64,000 bases of DNA from assembly GCA_030052745.1 (NCBI GenBank), contig JANBVO010000061.1, forward strand, positions 98,810 to 162,809, in the 5' to 3' direction. The notes under the pieces are model-generated. The model was not told where the DNA came from. It searched no databases and worked only from the letters and a program-made list of their open reading frames with translations. The stretch comes from Pleurostoma richardsiae (Eukaryota; Ascomycota; Sordariomycetes; Calosphaeriales; Pleurostomataceae). The translations under genes were made by a program, and so were the position numbers. Shown in pieces: positions 6,353 through 53,190 of the stretch (within the stretch, counting starts at the first letter, position 1; each line of letters starts with the position of its first letter).

Positions 6353-9300
6353 ATGGGCGACGCCATGGCTCCCAGAGGCATCCCTTTACAAGAGGAGGAT
6401 GGCAAGCCAGACTACTGCAATGAGTCTGTGTTCCGCAGAAACTGCCTCCCTACTCGCTCCTACTTTATCCCCGAAACCAATTTGCTCCTGAATGGCGCCT
6501 GGGACTTCCAGCTCGCCGCCACCCCACTTGATGCTCCGGAGCCGGACGCCGCTGTGGGCCCGGAGGGCTGGGGTAAAATCAATGTGCCCGGCCACTGGCA
6601 ACTCCAGGGCCACGGGGTGCCGCACTACACGAACACCCAATTCCCCATCCCTACCTGCCCACCGTATGTGCCGACGGAGAACCCGACCGGCACCTACCGG
6701 CGCTCGTTCTACGTTCCCTCTTCTTGGGACTCTAGCTCACAGTTGAGGCTGAGATTCGACGGCGTAGACAGCGCTTATCACGTCTGGGTGAACGGGGTAC
6801 TCATCGGGTACGCCCAGGGGTCACGGAACCCCTCCGAGTTCGATGTGACAGAGCATGTATCGCGCACTGCGGCAAATGAGCTCTTTGTGCGCGTCTACAA
6901 GTGGTCCGACGCCACGTACATCGAGGATCAGGACCAGTGGTGGCTATCGGGCATCTTCCGCGACGTCACTCTGATTGCGTTTCCGTCCGAGGCGAGGATC
7001 GAGGACTGGTTCCTCCGAACCGAGCTCGACAGCAAGTACGAGGATGCGACTCTCCATGCTGCTGTCGATGTTTTGAGCAAGGAGAAGGGTACTCTGAAGC
7101 TCACCCTAACCGAGCTCCCGAAAAATGGTGGGGACGTCATTGGCACCGGCGAGGTCTCCCTATCCCCCGGCTCGAAAAAGCTCGAGCTCAACCTTCCCGT
7201 CGACAGCCCCAAGAAGTGGACTGCTGAGACTCCTTACCTCTACCGCGTGCAGCTGACCTTGACGACGGCCAGCTCCCGCACCCACACTGTGACCCAGAAC
7301 ATCGGCTTCAGGAAGGTCGAGCTGCTCAACGGCCTCATGTGTGTTAACGGGACGCCTATCCGCCTGCGCGGTGTGAACCGGCACGAGCACCACCCATACC
7401 TCGGTCGGGCTGTGCCTTTCGACTTTGTTAAGAGAGACCTGCTGCTGATGAAAACGCATAACATCAACGCCCTACGGTGCAGTCACTACCCGTCGCACCC
7501 GCGCCTGTACGACCTCGCCGACGAGCTCGGCCTTTGGGTCATGGACGAAGCGGATCTCGAGTGCCACGGCTTCTACGACGCTGTGGCCCGCCCACAGGAC
7601 ATCCCTGAGGAGATGGACTACGAGGAGCGCAAGAAGCTCACTTTCCCCCAGGCCGCCAAATACACCTCCGACAACCAGAGCTGGCGTGCCGCCTACATCG
7701 ATCGCATGGAGAGCCTGGTGCAGCGCGACAAGAACCATACCTGCATCATCGTGTGGAGTCTGGGCAACGAGGCCTTCTACGGTGCCAACCACAAGGCCAT
7801 GTACGAGTATGCTAAGAAGGTGGACCCCGGCAGACTGGTGCATTACGAGGGAGACGCCCACGCCGAGTCAGTGGACATGTTCAGCTACATGTACCCTTCG
7901 ATAGAGCGCCTGACCAAGATGGCAGAGACCGCGGGTGTGGACAAGGACGGCAAATGGGAGAAGCCTGTTGTCCTGTGCGAATACGGGCACGCTATGGGAA
8001 ACGGCAAGTTCTTTCCAGCTCTTTCTATGCCTAGCCGTGCTCAAGCTAACACTAACCTGCAGGGCCAGGATGGCTAGAGGACTACGAGGAGCTCTTCGAG
8101 AAGTATCCCAGACTCCAGGGAGGCTTTATCTGGGAGTGGGCCAACCATGGCCTATGGAAGGAGGAAGCCAATGGCAAGGGTTACTACGCGTACGGAGGCG
8201 ATTTCGGCGACAAGCCCAATGACGGCACCTTCGTCATGGATGGTCTCTGCTTCAGCACGCACCAGCCTACGCCGGGCCTGACGGAGTTCAAGAAGGCCAT
8301 CCAGCCTGTCGGGTTCTCGGTGAAGGATGACAAAATCCTCGTGGAGAATAAGTACGACGTGGTCGATCTCGGGCATCTACAGGCCACGTTCAAGGTCGAG
8401 GAGTTTGGGGAACAGTAAGCAGGCCCTCCGCACACCTGTTCAAGCGTCATTGGCTCACATATACTGCCTCCAGGGCATCGCTCCTGTTGTCCGGACCCTT
8501 AGAGCTTCCTTCAGTCGGCCCGGGTCGGACCGGCGAGGTCGCCCTACCGTCATCACTGTCGAAGATAAAGAGCTCCGGTGAGCTCTACCTGACGATCTCG
8601 CTGCATCTCCGCGACTCAACCCCTTGGGCGGAATTAGGCCACGAGATAGCGTGGTTCCAACACAAGCTGCCCAATACTATCACGGAACAACGCGTCCTGT
8701 CAACGGCTCTCTCCCCGAGGGTTAATGTTTACACGTCCGGCACGTCCGTCAAAGTCTCCGGGCCCGAGTATACCTTCTCGTTCGACTCTGCGCGCGGCGT
8801 CATCACCGGCTGGAGCCGAGGAGGAACTTCTCTGCTCGAAGCGGATCCTATCACCGGCGCGGCAATCATCCCGTCCTTCTGGCGTCCGGCCACCGACAAC
8901 GACGTCTCCAATTCTCTGCCTTACTGGAAGAACTTCGGCGTGGACGCTCTCACAAGCCAGCTTCGGTCGTTCAGCGTGGACACATCGCACCCCGACAGGG
9001 CCATCATTAAGGCCCGGACCTTCATCAGCCCTCCCGTACTCGCCTGGGGCTGGGACTGCCATATCGAGTACACCATCTCTAACAGCGGCACGCTGGCCGT
9101 CGCCGTCGAAGAGCTCATCCCCACCGGTTATGCTCCCACCCACGTGCCCCGGATCGGCCTCAACCTTCACCTAACTAGGGCTCTGGACAAGGTCCGCTGG
9201 TTCGGCCTCGGCCCTGGTGAGAGCTACCCGGACAAGAAGTCGGCACAGCGCGTTGGCGTTTGGGAGGCAGGATCGGTCTCTGAACTGCAGACGCCGTACG

Positions 9301-10918: not shown

Positions 10919-12016
10919 GGGCTACCTGGAGAGATCAAGCTGGTGGCTCTGCATGCCCAGATCGCATTGGAAATCCGGTCGACTTGACCATGGTCTATCT
11001 ACGGCTTAAGTCCGGAGCAGAGCATTCGGTCGCACAAACATGAGTAAGCCACCTGCGATGAGACAAGCAAACGGGCGGGGGAAGCAGGACGCCCGGAATT
11101 GCCCTGTGCCCTAAACAGCCCGAGCCACGGACAGCCGCAAGAATGATGGGCGCTCTCGACTGAGAGCGAAGTGGGGATCGGCGTACGGAGCTGTAGCAGC
11201 TTATAATTCCGACGGACCTTGGCTGGCCTTCGGCTTTGTGCCCCTCGCGCTCTCGGATTCCCACGACGGCGAGCGGCTCGTTCCCGGGAAAAGCGGGCCA
11301 TCACGTCCCACTGCGGCGGAGTCACCGAAGCGGAACATGTGCCGAGACAGCCGCATTTGTCGTACGCCAACTGCAGCTGATAGACAATTGCCTGATCTTT
11401 GCTCCGGTTGCTTCGGATATTTGACCAAGACCCCAGTCTTCTATGGACCTTTCGTGCTCCTCAACTCGTGGGCCCTAGCTTTCAAGTGACATCGCAAATG
11501 ACTCTCATAGGTCTAGCTGGGGAGAGAGGATTGAGCGATCTCAAGGTCGCAATGATTCTGATAGGCTTTGATCTGGTCTATCTGTAGCAACAACTGCTTT
11601 CATCCTTCAGTGAGAAAAGAGCTGGTAGATCGGCGGACCTGAAAGAGGACCTGCTGGCGGTTTTGAATGCTCACCCACCCCCCACGTGTTGGCCGCATCT
11701 GCATAAATCTGGGTAAGCCACACCGTAGAGAAGTTCTTTGCTACTGAGCAAGACCGGTTTGCTGGAGCTTATCGGGAGCTGCCTTCAAATTTCCTCTTTC
11801 CAGTAGAACGTTTCCCCCGCCGCGTGACACGGTGGTTTTTATTCATGCGGTCGGGCTCTCATGATGGGGCATTTTTCACCTCGTCTGTTACATCATAATC
11901 ATCATGTGCAGTACTCCAGAAAAGACTCCGCAGGAAATGTTTAATGTCTCGGGTGTTATCGAGTTCGAAGATCCCGAGATGCCCTTGCTGATCGTAGCAC
12001 CCCGTCGCTCCCGCTG

Positions 12017-12043
12017 CGGCACCTCGGCGGCTCGGAGGCTCGG
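12017..12043 (+). promoter_or_regulatory. Phased CGG-N5-CGG array, prenyltransferase promoter
   Basis: CGG triplets start at 12017, 12025, 12033 and 12041, exactly 8 bp apart. An additional CGG at 12028 is out of phase. The 16-mer at 12029-12044 (GGCTCGGAGGCTCGGG) occurs again, inverted, in the decarboxylase promoter at 15452-15467. The array ends about 30 bp before a TATA-like element. Directly repeated CGG half-sites are a known Zn2Cys6 target type. Confidence 0.6.
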
Positions 12044-12074
12044 GAGACACGCCAACAGCATTGTCTCAAGAAGA

Positions 12075-12082
12075 TATTTAAA
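12075..12082 (+). promoter_or_regulatory. TATA-like element
   Basis: TATTTAAA, 55 bp upstream of the ATG at 12137. A transcript starting about 30 bp downstream would still include that ATG, which supports the longer protein. Confidence 0.4.
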
Positions 12083-12136
12083 TTTTAGATTCGGCAAAGT
12101 GATATTACGAGCTGTGTCGAGATTGGATGTGCTTTA

Positions 12137-12934
12137 ATGAGACTGATTCATTTTATATTCTCATCGTCCCCATCCCATTATCGGAGTAACGCGGCACGTC
12201 AACTGTTTGTGCACCCCACTCCTTCAGTTATCCAGTCGCTTTTGAACCAAGCTTGGGCGCCATTCCCGCTCAGTAGCTCAGTTACCAAACCAACAGGACC
12301 AGCAATGAACGGGGGATCCGTTGATTTAACATCGGATCATGTTCGCAATACTCGGAGGCAGAAGATCATCGTTGCCATAACCGGGGCCACAGGGGCAATC
12401 TTGGGCATTCGGGTCCTGATTGCCCTTCGGCGCCTGCACGTTGAAACGCACCTTGTCATATCGAAATGGGCGGAAGCAACTATCAAATATGAGACGGACT
12501 ATCACCCGTCGGCCGTGCGTTCCCTGGCGGATCACGTCTATGGCAGTAACGACATGGCCGCTCCAATCGCCAGCGGCTCATTCCTGGCTTCTGGCATGAT
12601 CGTGGCACCTTGCAGCATGAAAACCTTGGCAGCCATCCACAGCGGCTACTGTGACGATCTGATATCCCGCGCTGCGGATGTTATGATTAAGGAGAGAAGG
12701 AAGCTGGTTCTCGTCACGCGTGAGACCCCGCTGAGCGAGATACACCTTCGGAATATGCTGGAAGTGACGAGGGTTGGGGCAGTCATTTTCCCGCCTGTCC
12801 CAGCGTATTACACAAAGCCAGGTTCGATCGACGAAATGGTCGACCAGAGCGTTGGAAGGATGCTAGATCAGTTCAGCTTGGATACAGGCGACTTCGAGCG
12901 ATGGGAGGGCTGGAAGAAAGACCGGGAAGAGTAG
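12137..12934 (+). CDS. pad1: Flavin prenyltransferase, UbiX/Pad1 family
   Basis: Single exon, 265 residues from the ATG at 12137. Family similarity starts at about residue 75 with 'KIIVAITGATGAILGIR' (the UbiX GxTGA flavin-binding loop) and continues with 'SGMIVAPCSMKTLAAI', 'RRKLVLVTRETPLSEIH', 'PPVPAYYTKP' and 'VGRMLDQF'. Pad1/UbiX proteins attach a dimethylallyl unit to FMN to make prenyl-FMN, the cofactor of Fdc1-type decarboxylases. One such decarboxylase is encoded 2.8 kb downstream. The first 56 residues before an alternative ATG (12305) contain Arg and Ser and no Asp or Glu, like a mitochondrial presequence; yeast Pad1 is mitochondrial. Starting at 12305 would give 209 residues. A CGG-repeat array and a TATA-like element lie just upstream. 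Confidence 0.92.
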   Translation: MRLIHFIFSSSPSHYRSNAARQLFVHPTPSVIQSLLNQAWAPFPLSSSVTKPTGPAMNGGSVDLTSDHVRNTRRQKIIVAITGATGAILGIRVLIALRRLHVETHLVISKWAEATIKYETDYHPSAVRSLADHVYGSNDMAAPIASGSFLASGMIVAPCSMKTLAAIHSGYCDDLISRAADVMIKERRKLVLVTRETPLSEIHLRNMLEVTRVGAVIFPPVPAYYTKPGSIDEMVDQSVGRMLDQFSLDTGDFERWEGWKKDREE

Positions 12935-13049
12935 ACGGCTGGAAGTTTGCTTATTGGAAGTACGGTCCATCATTGGGCAAACTATTTGTGACAGGCCCTG
13001 CAGATTCTGTCAGTAAGTTCAAAGATATAAGCCGCTGGCTACCCACCAT

Positions 13050-15254
13050 TCATAAAATAGTTGAGATAGGCCAGAGGGGAGAGGCCGTCCATACCGACCT
13101 CTGAAAGGTCAAGGCCAAGGGGTTGGTTGCTGCTCCTATTGATCGTTGTAAATCAATATATGTCAGTTTGCGAGGAGTTGATGATGCTGACCCTAGTGAA
13201 GGTTGAAAGAAGTAGGGGTCGGTGGCGTTGGACGTATCAGCGTCAGTATAGAGTCCTGAGCTAGAACCTGTCGGGTTGTAGAGGGGTGGCTGCTCAGCAG
13301 GTACATGCTGCGGGTGGTCCTGGCCTAGAGCTTCTCTTAGACTGAGCAGTGTTCTTATGTGCTGAGGAGACAACCATCTGATTTCTCCGGAGCCCAAGCC
13401 ATCGTAGGCAGCATTTGCTGTGTCGGCAGCGAATACGTCAACGACTTGTTGTTGCAACCGCCGACAATCAGTATTGTCCCTGGTTTCGTCCCAAGCATAA
13501 AGCAGCAGGGCTGCGCTCAGTGCTTCATGCAAGATTGACCACGTTCGCCTTGGGACTATGCTCAAGGCCTGAAATTCTAGAAACGACTCGCAGACATTCA
13601 CCAAATTCTCTCTCGCCTTTACTCGTAGAACGTTGTTGCTCGGCTGCCCGCTCGTTCGCGCAGAGTTGCGAATCGCGGGGCGGCAGACGTACGTGACAAA
13701 AAATGACACGTGCATCTTAAGAGCATAGTGCTCTAGGAGCTGAGCCAAGTCCTTGCAGTCGCTAACCTCGTGTAGGTGACTTGAAGCCCTGCCGTACGCT
13801 TCATCAACATGTCTCAAGATGTCGGCCGGCAATTGATCGACCCGCACATCCAAAGCTTTCCGTTGCATAAACTCGATACTCAGGCAACAGATAATATTCA
13901 TAACACTTGCATACGAAAGATTACTGGCTGCGGGAACCCGTGATTCTGATAGCCATCCATGGCCGTAGATTGCTGGAGGTCGATCGTGGCAAATACTAAG
14001 CAAAGCATCCTGCCATACCACTCTCGACCTTCTTGTCATCAGCCGAGATGGGAATACGTATAAGCAGGTCTTAATAAAACTATAATCTTACCTCAATAGC
14101 TGGGTTTCTGTTACCGCCTCCCGGTTTATACCAAGATCACCGTCGGAGGTAAAGGCGATTGTTTGGGCAAGTCGAACAGTTGTGCCTAGTAAAGCCCACG
14201 CAGCATCTGACTGACCGGTATTTTGGAGTGTATTGCCCAGTATCAAGAGTGTTTGGATGTCAGAAGTAGAGGGTTGAAATAAGAAGTTCGCTAAACGCAA
14301 GGCGTGGAAAGACCTCTTTGCTACATGAACGAGTCAGTTTCCACGACTGGCGAAAGAGTAACAGTGGCGAAATGAAAAATCTGTACCGAAAGTGTGACTG
14401 GCACTTGTGCTTTCTCGGTCATCTGAGAAGTGTGCTCCTGATGCGACAATCGAAAGTAGCAGTGCGATGAAGCTAACGCCATTTCGTGATGCCCACTGTC
14501 CCTCTACGAGCTTTTGTCGATTTCTCAGTTCGCCAGCCGCCTCTGCCTTCAGGTATGCAGAGAGATCCAGCTCGAATCGGTCCGTATTTAGGAGTATGGG
14601 ATTAAACGGGGCGACGTGTGTGCGATAATGCTGATAGAATCTGGTCATACCCCAACCCCTGTTAGGACCCATCCTACACCCCGAGCAGCTGGCCGTTGCA
14701 TACCTCACAATGTCATTCCGCTGTGGGGCTATCGCCATCAGAGCATCAACGGCATCTCCCTGGGCATTGTGCTCCATGAAGAGGTAGCTCGTAAGCGTGT
14801 TCTGGAGGCCGAGCACTGCTCTCACGTCCCGAGCCAACGGCTCGTCGTTTGGAGAGGACACTTTTGATGTCAGGATAGCCGAGACCGAATCTTGTCCCGG
14901 GGAGGCGATGCCCGCTGCAGATACTCCCGGCCGAGTTGCTTGGCGTTCCCGTTCTCCGGCCATGCCAGGTGGCGTCCTCCTTCGGGAGGAATCCCGGCCA
15001 GGGCGGCGTTGCTGACTCCCCGAAGTCTGAACATCAAACGACGTACAGATCTCAGGATGGCCTCGCCTCTGACAGGTGCGACACGGCTGAGATTTGTCGC
15101 ATTTGACCTTCGCGACTGTCAGAATCGCCGGGATACGGACGCTCTCACAGCCATAGGACGTCCTCACCTTGCGCTGCTGGCACGGGTAACAGGCCCGCGC
15201 CTCGTGCGCTCTGCGTCGGTCCCGCAATACTCTCTGGACACTCTCGCGGTCCAT
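13050..15254 (-). CDS. Zn2Cys6 transcription factor, SdrA-like by position
   Basis: Model: complement of 13050-14031, 14092-14320, 14387-14658, 14704-15107 and 15168-15254; 628 residues. The Zn2Cys6 cluster is split by a 60-bp in-frame intron. After splicing it reads Cys22-x2-Cys25-x6-Cys32-x5-Cys38-x2-Cys41-x8-Cys50, with the basic 'QQRKVKC' between the first cysteines. A fungal-specific middle homology domain follows ('GVSFIALLLSIVASGAHF', 'FHALRLANFLFQPS', 'LLRRSRVVWQDALLSICHDRP'). The 45-bp intron 14659-14703 is in frame and less certain. The gene sits between the Pad1 and Fdc1 genes and is divergent from Fdc1 across 0.49 kb. In Aspergillus niger the sorbate-decarboxylation regulator sdrA occupies the same locus, so control of these two enzymes is the natural inference. 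Orthology was not tested. Confidence 0.85.
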
Positions 15255-15381
15255 CACGCCGCCCAATGGAAGTATCACAATCAAGTGTACTGGGAGCCTG
15301 TTTCTGCCGTGCAGCTGTGGTTTCTCTGGGTGGTTTGACCTGGCACGCGGGACTGGTCATGACGTAGGTACCTTAGTAACA

Positions 15382-15407
15382 TACCTACCTAGGTAGGTAG
15401 GTAGGTA
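15382..15407. repeat. TACCTACC / GGTAGGTA palindromic repeat
   Basis: Two TACC units meet four GGTA units around a central CCTAGG. The same TAGGTA theme recurs between genes elsewhere in the window, for example at 29481-29515, 48571-48600 and 56397-56425. Confidence 0.7.
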
Positions 15408-15452
15408 AACAAGCTTAGCTTCGAAGTTACGAGCGCCGGAAGTCCCGGCGGC

Positions 15453-15479
15453 CCGAGCCTCCGAGCCTCCGAGCCTCCG
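15453..15479 (-). promoter_or_regulatory. Phased CGG-N5-CGG array, decarboxylase promoter
   Basis: CCG triplets start at 15453, 15461, 15469 and 15477, so the minus strand has four CGG half-sites at 8-bp period with spacer AGGCT between each. Positions 15452-15467 are the reverse complement of 12029-12044 in the Pad1 promoter, identical over 16 bases. The array lies about 140 bp upstream of the TATA box. Confidence 0.65.
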
Positions 15480-15617
15480 AAGCGGCTTCCGCTGATTGCT
15501 TCGGACTCAGCTGTGCGGCATCGATTCGCGGTTTGGAATTGTCCAGTGCAGCTTGATCGATGTGAGGCCTTCCGAGGTTGGATAAGTGGGGTGCAGCACG
15601 ATGAAAAGATCTCTGGG

Positions 15618-15625: not shown

Positions 15626-15745
15626 AGTAGAACCGTGCAGGTTCCTTCGCTGGAGCTTGGCCTGAGTTTCAATTTATAACTCTTGTAAATTGTCCAGGAT
15701 ATCAGACACAGACTCTCGTTGCAAATAAGCTCATAGTAGAACGCA

Positions 15746-17311
15746 ATGGCGACCGATGCAGACCCAGCCCTTTCCTTCCGTGCTTTCGTGAGCGCCCTTC
15801 GAGCCGATGGCGATCTCGCCGAAATCAACGCGCCGGTCGATCCCCTTCTCGAAGCCGCCGCCATCACTCGGCTTGCATGCGAGACGAATGACAAGGCTCC
15901 TCTCTTCAATAACATCATCGGCAGGGAAGGAAATGGACTGTTTCGTATTCTGGGAGCCCCTAACTCGTTGAGGAACTCGAACAAGGACCGCTACGGGCGG
16001 TTGGCACGCCATCTCAGCCTTCCACCCACAGCTGGAATGCGCGAGATCCTCGACAAGATGACATCGGCCAGCACCGAAGATCCAATCGAGCCTACACTTG
16101 TGGAGGATGCACCCTGCAAGCAAAACTCCTTGGAAGGAGACGAAATCGACCTGACGGCTCTCCCTGCGCCGATGATACACAAGGACGACGGCGGAAAATA
16201 CATACAGACGTACGGCATGCACGTTGTTCAATCCCCTGATGGCAAATGGACCAACTGGTCCATCGCTCGGGCGATGGTGCACGATAAGAGACACCTAGTC
16301 GGACTGGTCATTGAACCCCAGCACATCTGGCAGATCCACCAGATGTGGAAGAAGGAAGGCCGTGACGTACCCTGGGCCCTGGCTTTTGGAGTGCCGCCGG
16401 CGGCCATCATGGCTTCTAGCATGCCAATCCCGGACGGAGTCTCAGAGGCCGGCTACATAGGTGCAATAACTGGCTCGTCGCTCGAGGTCGTGAAGTGCGA
16501 TACCAACGACCTTCTCGTGCCTGCCAACAGTGAGATTGTCCTTGAGGGCACTCTTTCTATCACAGAAACCGCAACAGAAGGCCCCTTTGGTGAGATGCAC
16601 GGCTATGTCTTCCCGGGAGATAGCCATCCCTGGCCGGTGTACACCGTGAACAAAATTACGTATCGTAACGATCCTATCCTTCCCATGTCATCCTGCGGAA
16701 GGCTCACCGACGAGACTGTGAGTAACATGGTCTGATCTGCCGTATGGTATTGAAAAGCTAATGGCATGTAGCATACAATGATTGGGGCGCTTGCTGCTGC
16801 TGAGATCGGGAGGCTCTGCAAGCAAGCTGGCTTGCCTGTTCTCGATGCCTTTTCACCCTTTGAGTCCCAGGTGACCTGGGTAGCGCTAAGAATCGATACG
16901 GAGAAGCTTCGCAGCATGCAAGTGTCACCGAAGGAGTTTGGCAGGAGAGTGGGGGACCTAGTTTTCAACCACAAAGCCGGCTACACAATCCACCGCCTAG
17001 TACTGGTCGGCGATGATATCGACGTCTATGACGGCAAAGATGTTATGTGGGCTTTCTCAACCCGATGCCGGCCCGGAACTGATGAAATCTTCTTCGAGGA
17101 TGTCCGTGGTTTTCCACTGATCCCATACATGTCCCATGGTAGTGGCAGCCCCGTCCGAGGAGGGAAGGTTGTCTCGGATGCGCTGCTCCCTTGCGAGTAC
17201 ACAACTGGTCGAACGTGGGTGGCTGCAGATTTCCAGAATTCTTACCCCGAGGAACTCAAGACCAAGATCCTCCAGAAGTGGAACGCGATGGGGTTCCGGA
17301 AGCAAGACTGA
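15746..17311 (+). CDS. fdc1: Ferulic/cinnamic acid decarboxylase, UbiD/Fdc1 family
   Basis: Exons 15746-16717 and 16772-17311 (54-bp intron GTGAGT...TAG); 503 residues, the Fdc1 length. The enzyme uses prenyl-FMN to decarboxylate alpha,beta-unsaturated acids such as cinnamate, ferulate or sorbate. Comparing from memory with Aspergillus niger Fdc1, the catalytic triad is intact: Arg175 in '[11 protein letters not shown]', Glu278 in 'TEGPFG' and Glu283 in 'GEMHGY'. The metal/phosphate ligands Asn170, His193 and Glu234 are also present. Long stretches such as '[12 protein letters not shown]' and '[16 protein letters not shown]' are family hallmarks. I see no clear mitochondrial presequence at its N-terminus, unlike the partner prenyltransferase. 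Its promoter is shared with the Zn2Cys6 gene. Confidence 0.96.
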
Positions 17312-52204: not shown

Positions 52205-53190
52205 ATGGCGAATACCGCAGCCGCAACCGTCACCACTGCAGGAGCTATCGCGAACGCCATCGCAACCAGGAGTACCACGCCGTTGTCATTAGTACAGACC
52301 TCCTTCGCCTTCAACCCTCTCACTACGACCTCACGCCGCCGCCCGCTTGTACCGGCGTCTACTGGGGTGAGGTGGCCATCATCGACCGGGATGCCTCATG
52401 CTTGCCCTCTGGCTTCAACAAGTCCGCCACCGACTCCTACTTCTCACCCGGCGTCGCCTGTCCCGCCGGGTATGTCTCCGCCTGCCACGACACCGCCGGC
52501 GCCGCGAGCATCACGACCGTGACCTGCTGCCCCTCCCGCGAGGACCTGACCCTGTCGTGCGTCGACCCGGCGACGCTGGCAGGGCGATGGAGCCTGTTGT
52601 TCTGCACGTGGATCGCGCCTGAGACGCAGACCGTCGTCAGCATCACGCTGTCGGATGATGACAGCGGAAAGACGAGCACGGTGCCCTACACGATGACCTC
52701 GCCGGACGGGGTGAACGCTTACGGCATCAGGATGGTGCACCAAGCGACGGACCTGGTCAGCTCCACGACGGGGACGGCGGCAGTGACGTCGTCGACGACA
52801 TCCGACGCGACGCAGGCGTCTGCGTCCGCCACTGCACTGCCGGACTCGCCCGACGACGATGGTAACCTCTCAACGGGTGCGAAGGCGGCGATTGGAGTCA
52901 TTGTCCTCGTAGTCGCGCTGGGGATCGCAGGACTGCTGTTCTACCTGTGGAGGAGAAGGCGGCGGGAGTCCAAGGCGGTTGAGCAGCCGGCCGCCGCGCC
53001 GACGTTCCTTGGGAAGGAACAGCCGCCGGTGGAGTACGACCAAGGGTACGGATACTACGGGGCCGGCGCCGGCAAGACCCCGGGGGTGGCGTTTATGCCA
53101 TCGGAACTGTCCGGTCAGGGGAGGCAGTTCCATGAGCTGGAGGACCGTGGACCACCTGTGGAGCTGCCAGCTGACACGAGCATGCGGTAG
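52205..53190 (+). CDS. Single-pass membrane protein, apparent frameshift near N-terminus
   Basis: The plus strand encodes a Cys-containing extracellular domain ('PPPACTGVYWGEVAI', 'SCLPSGF', 'VACPAGYVSACHDT', 'TVTCCPS', 'LSCVDPATLAGRW', 'LLFCTWIAPETQT'). A Ser/Thr-rich stalk follows, then one transmembrane segment ('AIGVIVLVVALGIAGLLFYLW', about 52891-52956), an RRRRR stop-transfer and a Pro/Gly/Tyr-rich cytoplasmic tail ending at 53190. This layout is common among Pezizomycotina surface or sensor-like proteins of unknown function. The only nearby ATG (52205) opens a different frame ('MANTAAATVTTAGA'), which must shift by one base between about 52310 and 52340 to join 'HYDLTPPPAC'. No intron fits. 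It is either a sequencing/assembly indel, a real disrupting mutation, or an unrecognised upstream exon. Confidence 0.65.

Follow-up and report, generated by a model that had tools for sequence, protein, structure and literature searches.

The 64,000-nucleotide stretch of the Pleurostoma richardsiae genome considered here (contig JANBVO010000061.1, positions 98,810 to 162,809), which will be called the window, carries a gene for a flavin prenyltransferase of the Pad1/UbiX type (pad1), a gene for a decarboxylase of the Fdc1/CdcA type (fdc1) and, between them, a gene for a Zn2Cys6 regulator. The pad1 promoter and the promoter shared by fdc1 and the regulator contain one and the same 34-bp block, built of CGG triplets repeated every 8 bp, placed on opposite strands in the same register and identical at 29 of the 34 positions (85%). 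This pair of arrays is real and locally striking, and it makes a good candidate for a site of the type read by SdrA, the regulator of the corresponding cluster in Aspergillus niger. On the sequence, we consider it fairly probable that the two blocks are homotypic binding-site arrays for an SdrA-like Zn2Cys6 activator, namely the one encoded between them.

The coordinates of the blocks and of the genes are collected in Table 1. The four plus-strand and four minus-strand triplets, and their 8-bp period, had been listed in a preliminary description of this DNA, and a complete listing of CGG triplets agrees with it. Both blocks start with CCGCT and end with CGGG, and all five differences between them fall outside the triplets, leaving 12 of 12 CGG bases unchanged, a result that is weak in itself (chance P 0.095). 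In addition to the four units, the fdc1 array is followed by a fifth CGG in phase, the spacer leading to it ending in C, and the pad1 array includes an additional CGG at 12028, out of phase. Part of the fdc1 array is simply CGGAGGCT repeated in tandem every 8 bp, in 3.5 perfect copies.

Table 1. Features of the pad1, regulator and fdc1 locus, in window coordinates
Feature	Position	Strand	Remarks
34-bp array block, pad1 promoter	12011..12044	+	CGG at 12017, 12025, 12033, 12041
34-bp array block, shared fdc1/regulator promoter	15452..15485	-	CCG (= CGG on -) at 15453, 15461, 15469, 15477
Fifth CGG, in phase with fdc1 array	15445..15447	-	
Pad1/UbiX-type flavin prenyltransferase gene	12305..12934	+	Flavoprotein PF02441 1.7e-42; PDB 6qlg 8.4e-104
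SdrA-like Zn2Cys6 regulator gene, several exons	13050..15254	-	Zn_clus PF00172 1.3e-4; exon borders by eye, 3' end uncertain
Fdc1/CdcA decarboxylase exon 1	15743..16717	+	UbiD, UbiD_N; A. niger Fdc1 4za4 3e-172
Fdc1/CdcA decarboxylase exon 2	16772..17311	+	UbiD_C; A. niger Fdc1 4za4 7.5e-91

Regarding the bases around the triplets, a T precedes seven of the eight CGG of the two four-unit arrays, the first pad1 unit having a G instead, and all six spacers end in T (three of them being identical copies), against 15 of 75 spacers in 25 other arrays of the genome. This count omits five of the 30 genome matches described below, namely three from the array locus itself and two overlapping registers (C60 and C71).

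The blocks also stand at similar places: 260 bp separate the pad1 block from the ATG at 12305, and the other block lies 257 bp before the fdc1 ATG (15743) and 197 bp before the regulator ATG (15254), with the orientation of the array relative to the start codon being opposite at pad1 and fdc1. The near-equal distances of 260 and 257 bp would vanish if pad1 translation began at 12137 instead of 12305. The pad1 frame is indeed open upstream of 12305, where the in-frame ATG at 12137 is a possible alternative start, and the segment 12137-12304 would extend the protein by 56 residues, none of them Asp or Glu, in the manner of a mitochondrial targeting sequence. Among the five inverted pairs listed between 9600 and 17800 the array pair is the longest; the others measure at most 20 bp, and just one of them, a part of the same block, also joins both promoters. 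A 10-mer common to both promoters, TTGCTTCGGA, was set aside, since by a hand estimate chance would give about one match of this kind.

The likeness of the two blocks exceeds what shuffled promoters give, and the pair is nearly unique in the 39.4 Mb genome, which was searched with the same patterns read backwards as controls. The 16-mer GGCTCGGAGGCTCGGG, identical in both arrays, has two matches in the whole genome, one per strand and both in the arrays, and its backward control has none, so that its earlier report, in opposite orientation and lacking a third copy in the window, stands. Likewise, the five window matches to CGGN5CGGN5CGG all lie within the two arrays (the shuffles average 0.74, and none of 100 has as many as five). 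Shuffling the dinucleotides of each promoter 3000 times never produced four CGG at 8 bp, and the two promoters agree at up to 21 of 22 bases in a 22-base stretch, where 100 shuffles reach 17 at best.

The bare CGG array is, by itself, no special class of the genome, and the 8-bp period is not special, because four CGG at 8 bp give 30 matches genome-wide (or 27 separate arrays when overlapping registers count as one) against 86 for the backward pattern, with 45 matches at a period of 7 bp and 13 at 10 bp. The window itself has four-CGG runs at other periods, found when 21 periods were tried: 5 bp at 8516, 15 bp at 52447 and 20 bp at 11254. What is special is the pairing, that is, the 16-mer unique to the pair and the near-unique form with CTCGG three times at 8 bp, exact at four genome places, two of them in this locus. 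The shorter form, TCGG three times at 8 bp, has 17 genome matches, three at this locus, and 82 for the backward pattern. From the 25 other four-CGG arrays, 0.041 are expected per 64-kb window and the probability of two or more is 8e-4; for CTCGG three times, the Poisson probability of two in one 64-kb window, derived from the other two places, is 5e-6; both values are post hoc and uncorrected for the choice of motif and period. Judged by covering open frames only, 16 of the 25 other arrays lie under an open frame of at least 180 codons and nine do not, a test that is weak because the fdc1 array is itself under a spurious 187-codon frame.

The best PDB match of the pad1 product is 6qlg, labelled "Flavin prenyltransferase PAD1, mitochondrial", which we take to be the A. 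niger protein, and A. niger Fdc1 entries are the best PDB matches of the window Fdc1, the exon 1 queries extending two codons into the intron. That a Zn2Cys6 factor is encoded between the two enzyme genes, as first noticed from the letters alone, is borne out by the minus-strand match to PF00172, which at 22.5 bits lies just above the cut-off of 21; the zinc cluster also gives weak PDB matches to CYP1/HAP1 and Cep3 chains (E 3e-4). When the first exon was used as query, the next best place in the genome was 31% identical (E 1e-5). Read by eye, the zinc cluster of the protein is preceded by a basic stretch, RDRRRAHEAR, and followed by one rich in Pro and Gly, with no coiled coil evident there.

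Taken by family and gene order, the trio, a putative detoxification set, matches the padA-sdrA-cdcA cluster for decarboxylation of cinnamic and sorbic acid in A. niger: in both, genes of the Pad1/UbiX and UbiD/Fdc1 types lie close together with a Zn2Cys6 gene between them. The two differ in that the flavin-reductase, BTB/POZ and carboxylesterase families were not seen among the 26 pieces of open reading frames, covering part of the window, that were scanned with Pfam. In A. niger, as excerpts of the literature report, sdrA lies between cdcA and padA, its deletion lowers both, and SdrA is needed for their full expression (PMC6776626, PMC9200314). The regulator may well be orthologous to SdrA, as suggested by gene order and by a short shared stretch: its HEARACYPC has the five residues EARAC in common with MKRNQREARAC, the start of A. 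niger SdrA as read from primers given in an excerpt of PMC8877037. The Pfam and PDB matches and the published cluster lend support to the model of a cofactor-enzyme regulon put forward in the preliminary description. Among the listed literature matches on SdrA and weak acids, in the portions available, no SdrA binding site was found beyond motifs attributed to Plumridge 2010.

The site itself resembles one that has been measured for another fungal regulator. According to the available parts of PMC4360782, TerR of A. terreus has a monomeric Zn2Cys6 domain, preceded by a basic stretch, that reads direct repeats of the form TCGG-N5-CGG (motif TCGGHHWYHCGGH); affinity stems from the first CGG and the second brings in a further monomer, a T before the first CGG and a T at the end of the spacer are favoured, and 4-bp spacers and inverted sites are unbound. 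The window arrays share with this site the direct CGG repeat, the 5-bp spacer, the T before CGG and the T at the spacer end, and the window regulator shares, as judged by eye, the basic stretch before the cluster and the lack of an evident coiled coil. They differ in that the TerR motifs, as far as they are described there, are pairs that serve a different pathway, whereas the window arrays have four to five CGG in a row. Among the literature considered, TerR is the closest measured case; it makes direct CGG-N5-CGG repeats a plausible target of the neighbouring factor, and the candidate array would be a kind of site already known from this one other regulator. Hap1 likewise reads a direct CGG repeat, but its CGG-N6-CGG site has a 9-bp period, against 8 bp in the window, and is bound by a coiled-coil dimer. 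The title of one reference calls Hap1 an asymmetric homodimer. The CLR-1/ClrA motif CGGN5CGGNCCG, as given in excerpts of PMC5468973 and PMC6498484, shares the CGG-N5-CGG core but has a third, inverted half-site, whereas all in-phase CGG of the window are direct.

From these comparisons a mechanism can be proposed. The unit of the array would be TCGG followed by a spacer whose last base is T (TCGG-N4-T-CGG), and the SdrA-like factor would most likely bind as monomers, one per CGG, head to tail at the 8-bp period; such monomers of the neighbouring factor are favoured because of the TerR mode of binding, the spacers ending in T, and the basic and Pro/Gly-rich stretches of the regulator. In the presence of sorbic or cinnamic acid, the factor may then switch on pad1, whose product would make the prenylated flavin mononucleotide (FMN) cofactor, together with fdc1, the decarboxylase, and the regulator may also control its own gene through the array lying between that gene and fdc1. 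The suggestion that several molecules sit along one face of the helix fails, since the helix rotates through 274 degrees with every 8 bp and the bound molecules cannot line one face. A bolder picture, which we regard as unlikely, is that at least four SdrA-like monomers occupy the 8-bp lattice about 86 degrees apart and wind around the DNA (four steps make 32 bp, about three turns) as a cooperative homotypic platform; such a winding platform for Zn2Cys6 factors was not found described among the literature matches listed. The locus gives a concrete, near-unique 34-bp candidate for an SdrA-type site and raises the question of how Zn2Cys6 monomers are arranged along a long direct repeat. Should the motif of Plumridge 2010 turn out to be this CGG direct repeat, the present observation would extend a published suggestion to a new species.

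Some explanations do without the neighbouring factor. A neutral 8-bp minisatellite could have arisen in the fdc1 promoter, with a piece copied inverted into the pad1 promoter or the reverse, and no regulator need read it; the 3.5 perfect units of the fdc1 copy, the further 8-bp CGG tandems elsewhere (C45, C63 and C104, for example) and a short CGGAGGCT tandem in a non-coding-looking stretch of C66 all fit this account. It would demand that the repeat reached the promoters of both enzymes in a single pathway, nearly equally far from the start codons, and that all CGG bases were kept while others changed, the latter being the weak point given above, and, leaving aside the fragment of that block, none of the other inverted pairs listed links one promoter to the other; on balance we hold it to be unlikely. 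Somewhat less probable still is that the array is read by a different Zn2Cys6 factor, WarA-like or FarA-like. The available excerpts mention that in A. niger a further regulator besides SdrA is suspected for cdcA and padA, that WarA and WarB are said to act in sorbic and cinnamic acid degradation, and that CCTCGG is a reported FarA site; this hexamer has a single copy in the pad1 array (12022-12027) and none in the fdc1 array, cinnamic acid use is reported in one such source, which gives no data, to be less affected in FarA/FarD mutants, and a factor linked to the cluster is the simplest candidate. We consider it very improbable that the G-rich strands act on transcription by forming a two-tetrad quadruplex or another DNA structure: GG runs are repeated in both blocks, but they are almost the only G runs there and are weak, and the G-rich strand is oriented differently relative to pad1 and to fdc1. 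Hairpin formation was rejected because folding is no better than that of shuffles (z 0.99 and -0.20, in a hairpin model that does not cover quadruplexes).

Several results weigh against the view of the blocks as sites of the neighbouring SdrA-like factor. By the preliminary description, a phased array that was common in unrelated promoters of this genome would refute the regulon model: for the bare form with four CGG this is partly so, with arrays at 25 further genome places, and for the CTCGG form it hardly is, with two exact places elsewhere. Looser patterns do not exceed their backward controls: when one mismatch is accepted, CTCGG three times is matched 19 times and its control 23 times; the longer block, at up to three mismatches, and its control have 3 matches each; and TCGGNGGCTCGG has 40 against 62. 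No connection with the pathway is evident for the closest third copy, at C66:236783-236810, where the surrounding sequence looks non-coding. The window spacers AGGCT, CGGCT and CACCT do not fit HHWYH, the spacer consensus of TerR in the source as excerpted, so that the likeness to TerR is one of mode, not membership. Moreover, Lubbers 2019, as far as excerpted, has SdrA controlling six further genes near the cluster, and has the motifs of Plumridge 2010 suggested for cdcA and padA and absent from the neighbouring genes; because these neighbouring SdrA-controlled genes are without such motifs, SdrA control need not depend on such a site.

A last adverse point comes from two further divergent pad/fdc pairs in the same genome, paralogous to the window genes and used as internal controls, at C56:39000-48500 (L039) and C2:563500-573000 (L040), whose intergenic promoters do not contain the array. 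The C56 pair is 58% (fdc exon) and 66% (pad) identical to the window genes, and the C2 pair 39% and 68%. In the C2 promoter two isolated CGG-N5-CGG pairs occur, and a T closes the spacer of one of them; at the C56 locus the sole run of three CGG at an 8-bp period is at L039:7714, on the far side of fdc. A different Zn2Cys6 gene is found within 2 kb of each pad/fdc pair, and because of this the two gene pairs are not orthologous tests and neither support nor refute the binding of the window arrays by the neighbouring factor. Across four pad/fdc promoters, GCTCGGA occurs five times against 0.57 expected (once at pad1, twice at fdc1, twice at C2) and TCGGAAG four times against 0.16 (once at fdc1, twice at C56, once at C2), both words having been selected from many k-mers. 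The genome thus holds three parallel prenyl-FMN decarboxylase modules, and the C56 pad gene borders AT-rich sequence.

The regulator gene has a peculiarity of its own at 15108-15167 on the minus strand, where the zinc cluster is split between QRK and VKCDK by 20 extra codons that keep the frame and contain no stop. This insert is probably an intron, its acceptor being an unusual AAG; if retained, it would yield a regulator with a broken DNA-binding domain.

Two other places in the genome were considered as possible members of the regulon and set aside, no pathway link being found on examining both places. The third genomic CGGAGGCT tandem (L064:1500-1520, equal to C66:236789-236809) lies within 3,012 bp lacking an open frame of more than 149 codons, and the nearest gene recognised by Pfam, with a fungal rhodopsin domain, is about 2.8 kb away. 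The other, at C45:159021-159047 on the minus strand (L007:1501-1527), is the fourth exact place of the CTCGG form and has four CGG at 8 bp in CGGCGTCT units, its three spacers all ending in T. It stands some 400 bp upstream of a gene whose metallo-beta-lactamase match is weak (E 0.0049, under the Pfam cut-off), and it adjoins a gene that resembles a fungal transcription factor by eye, the piece scanned giving no Pfam match; this C45 array may mark a second regulon of the array type.

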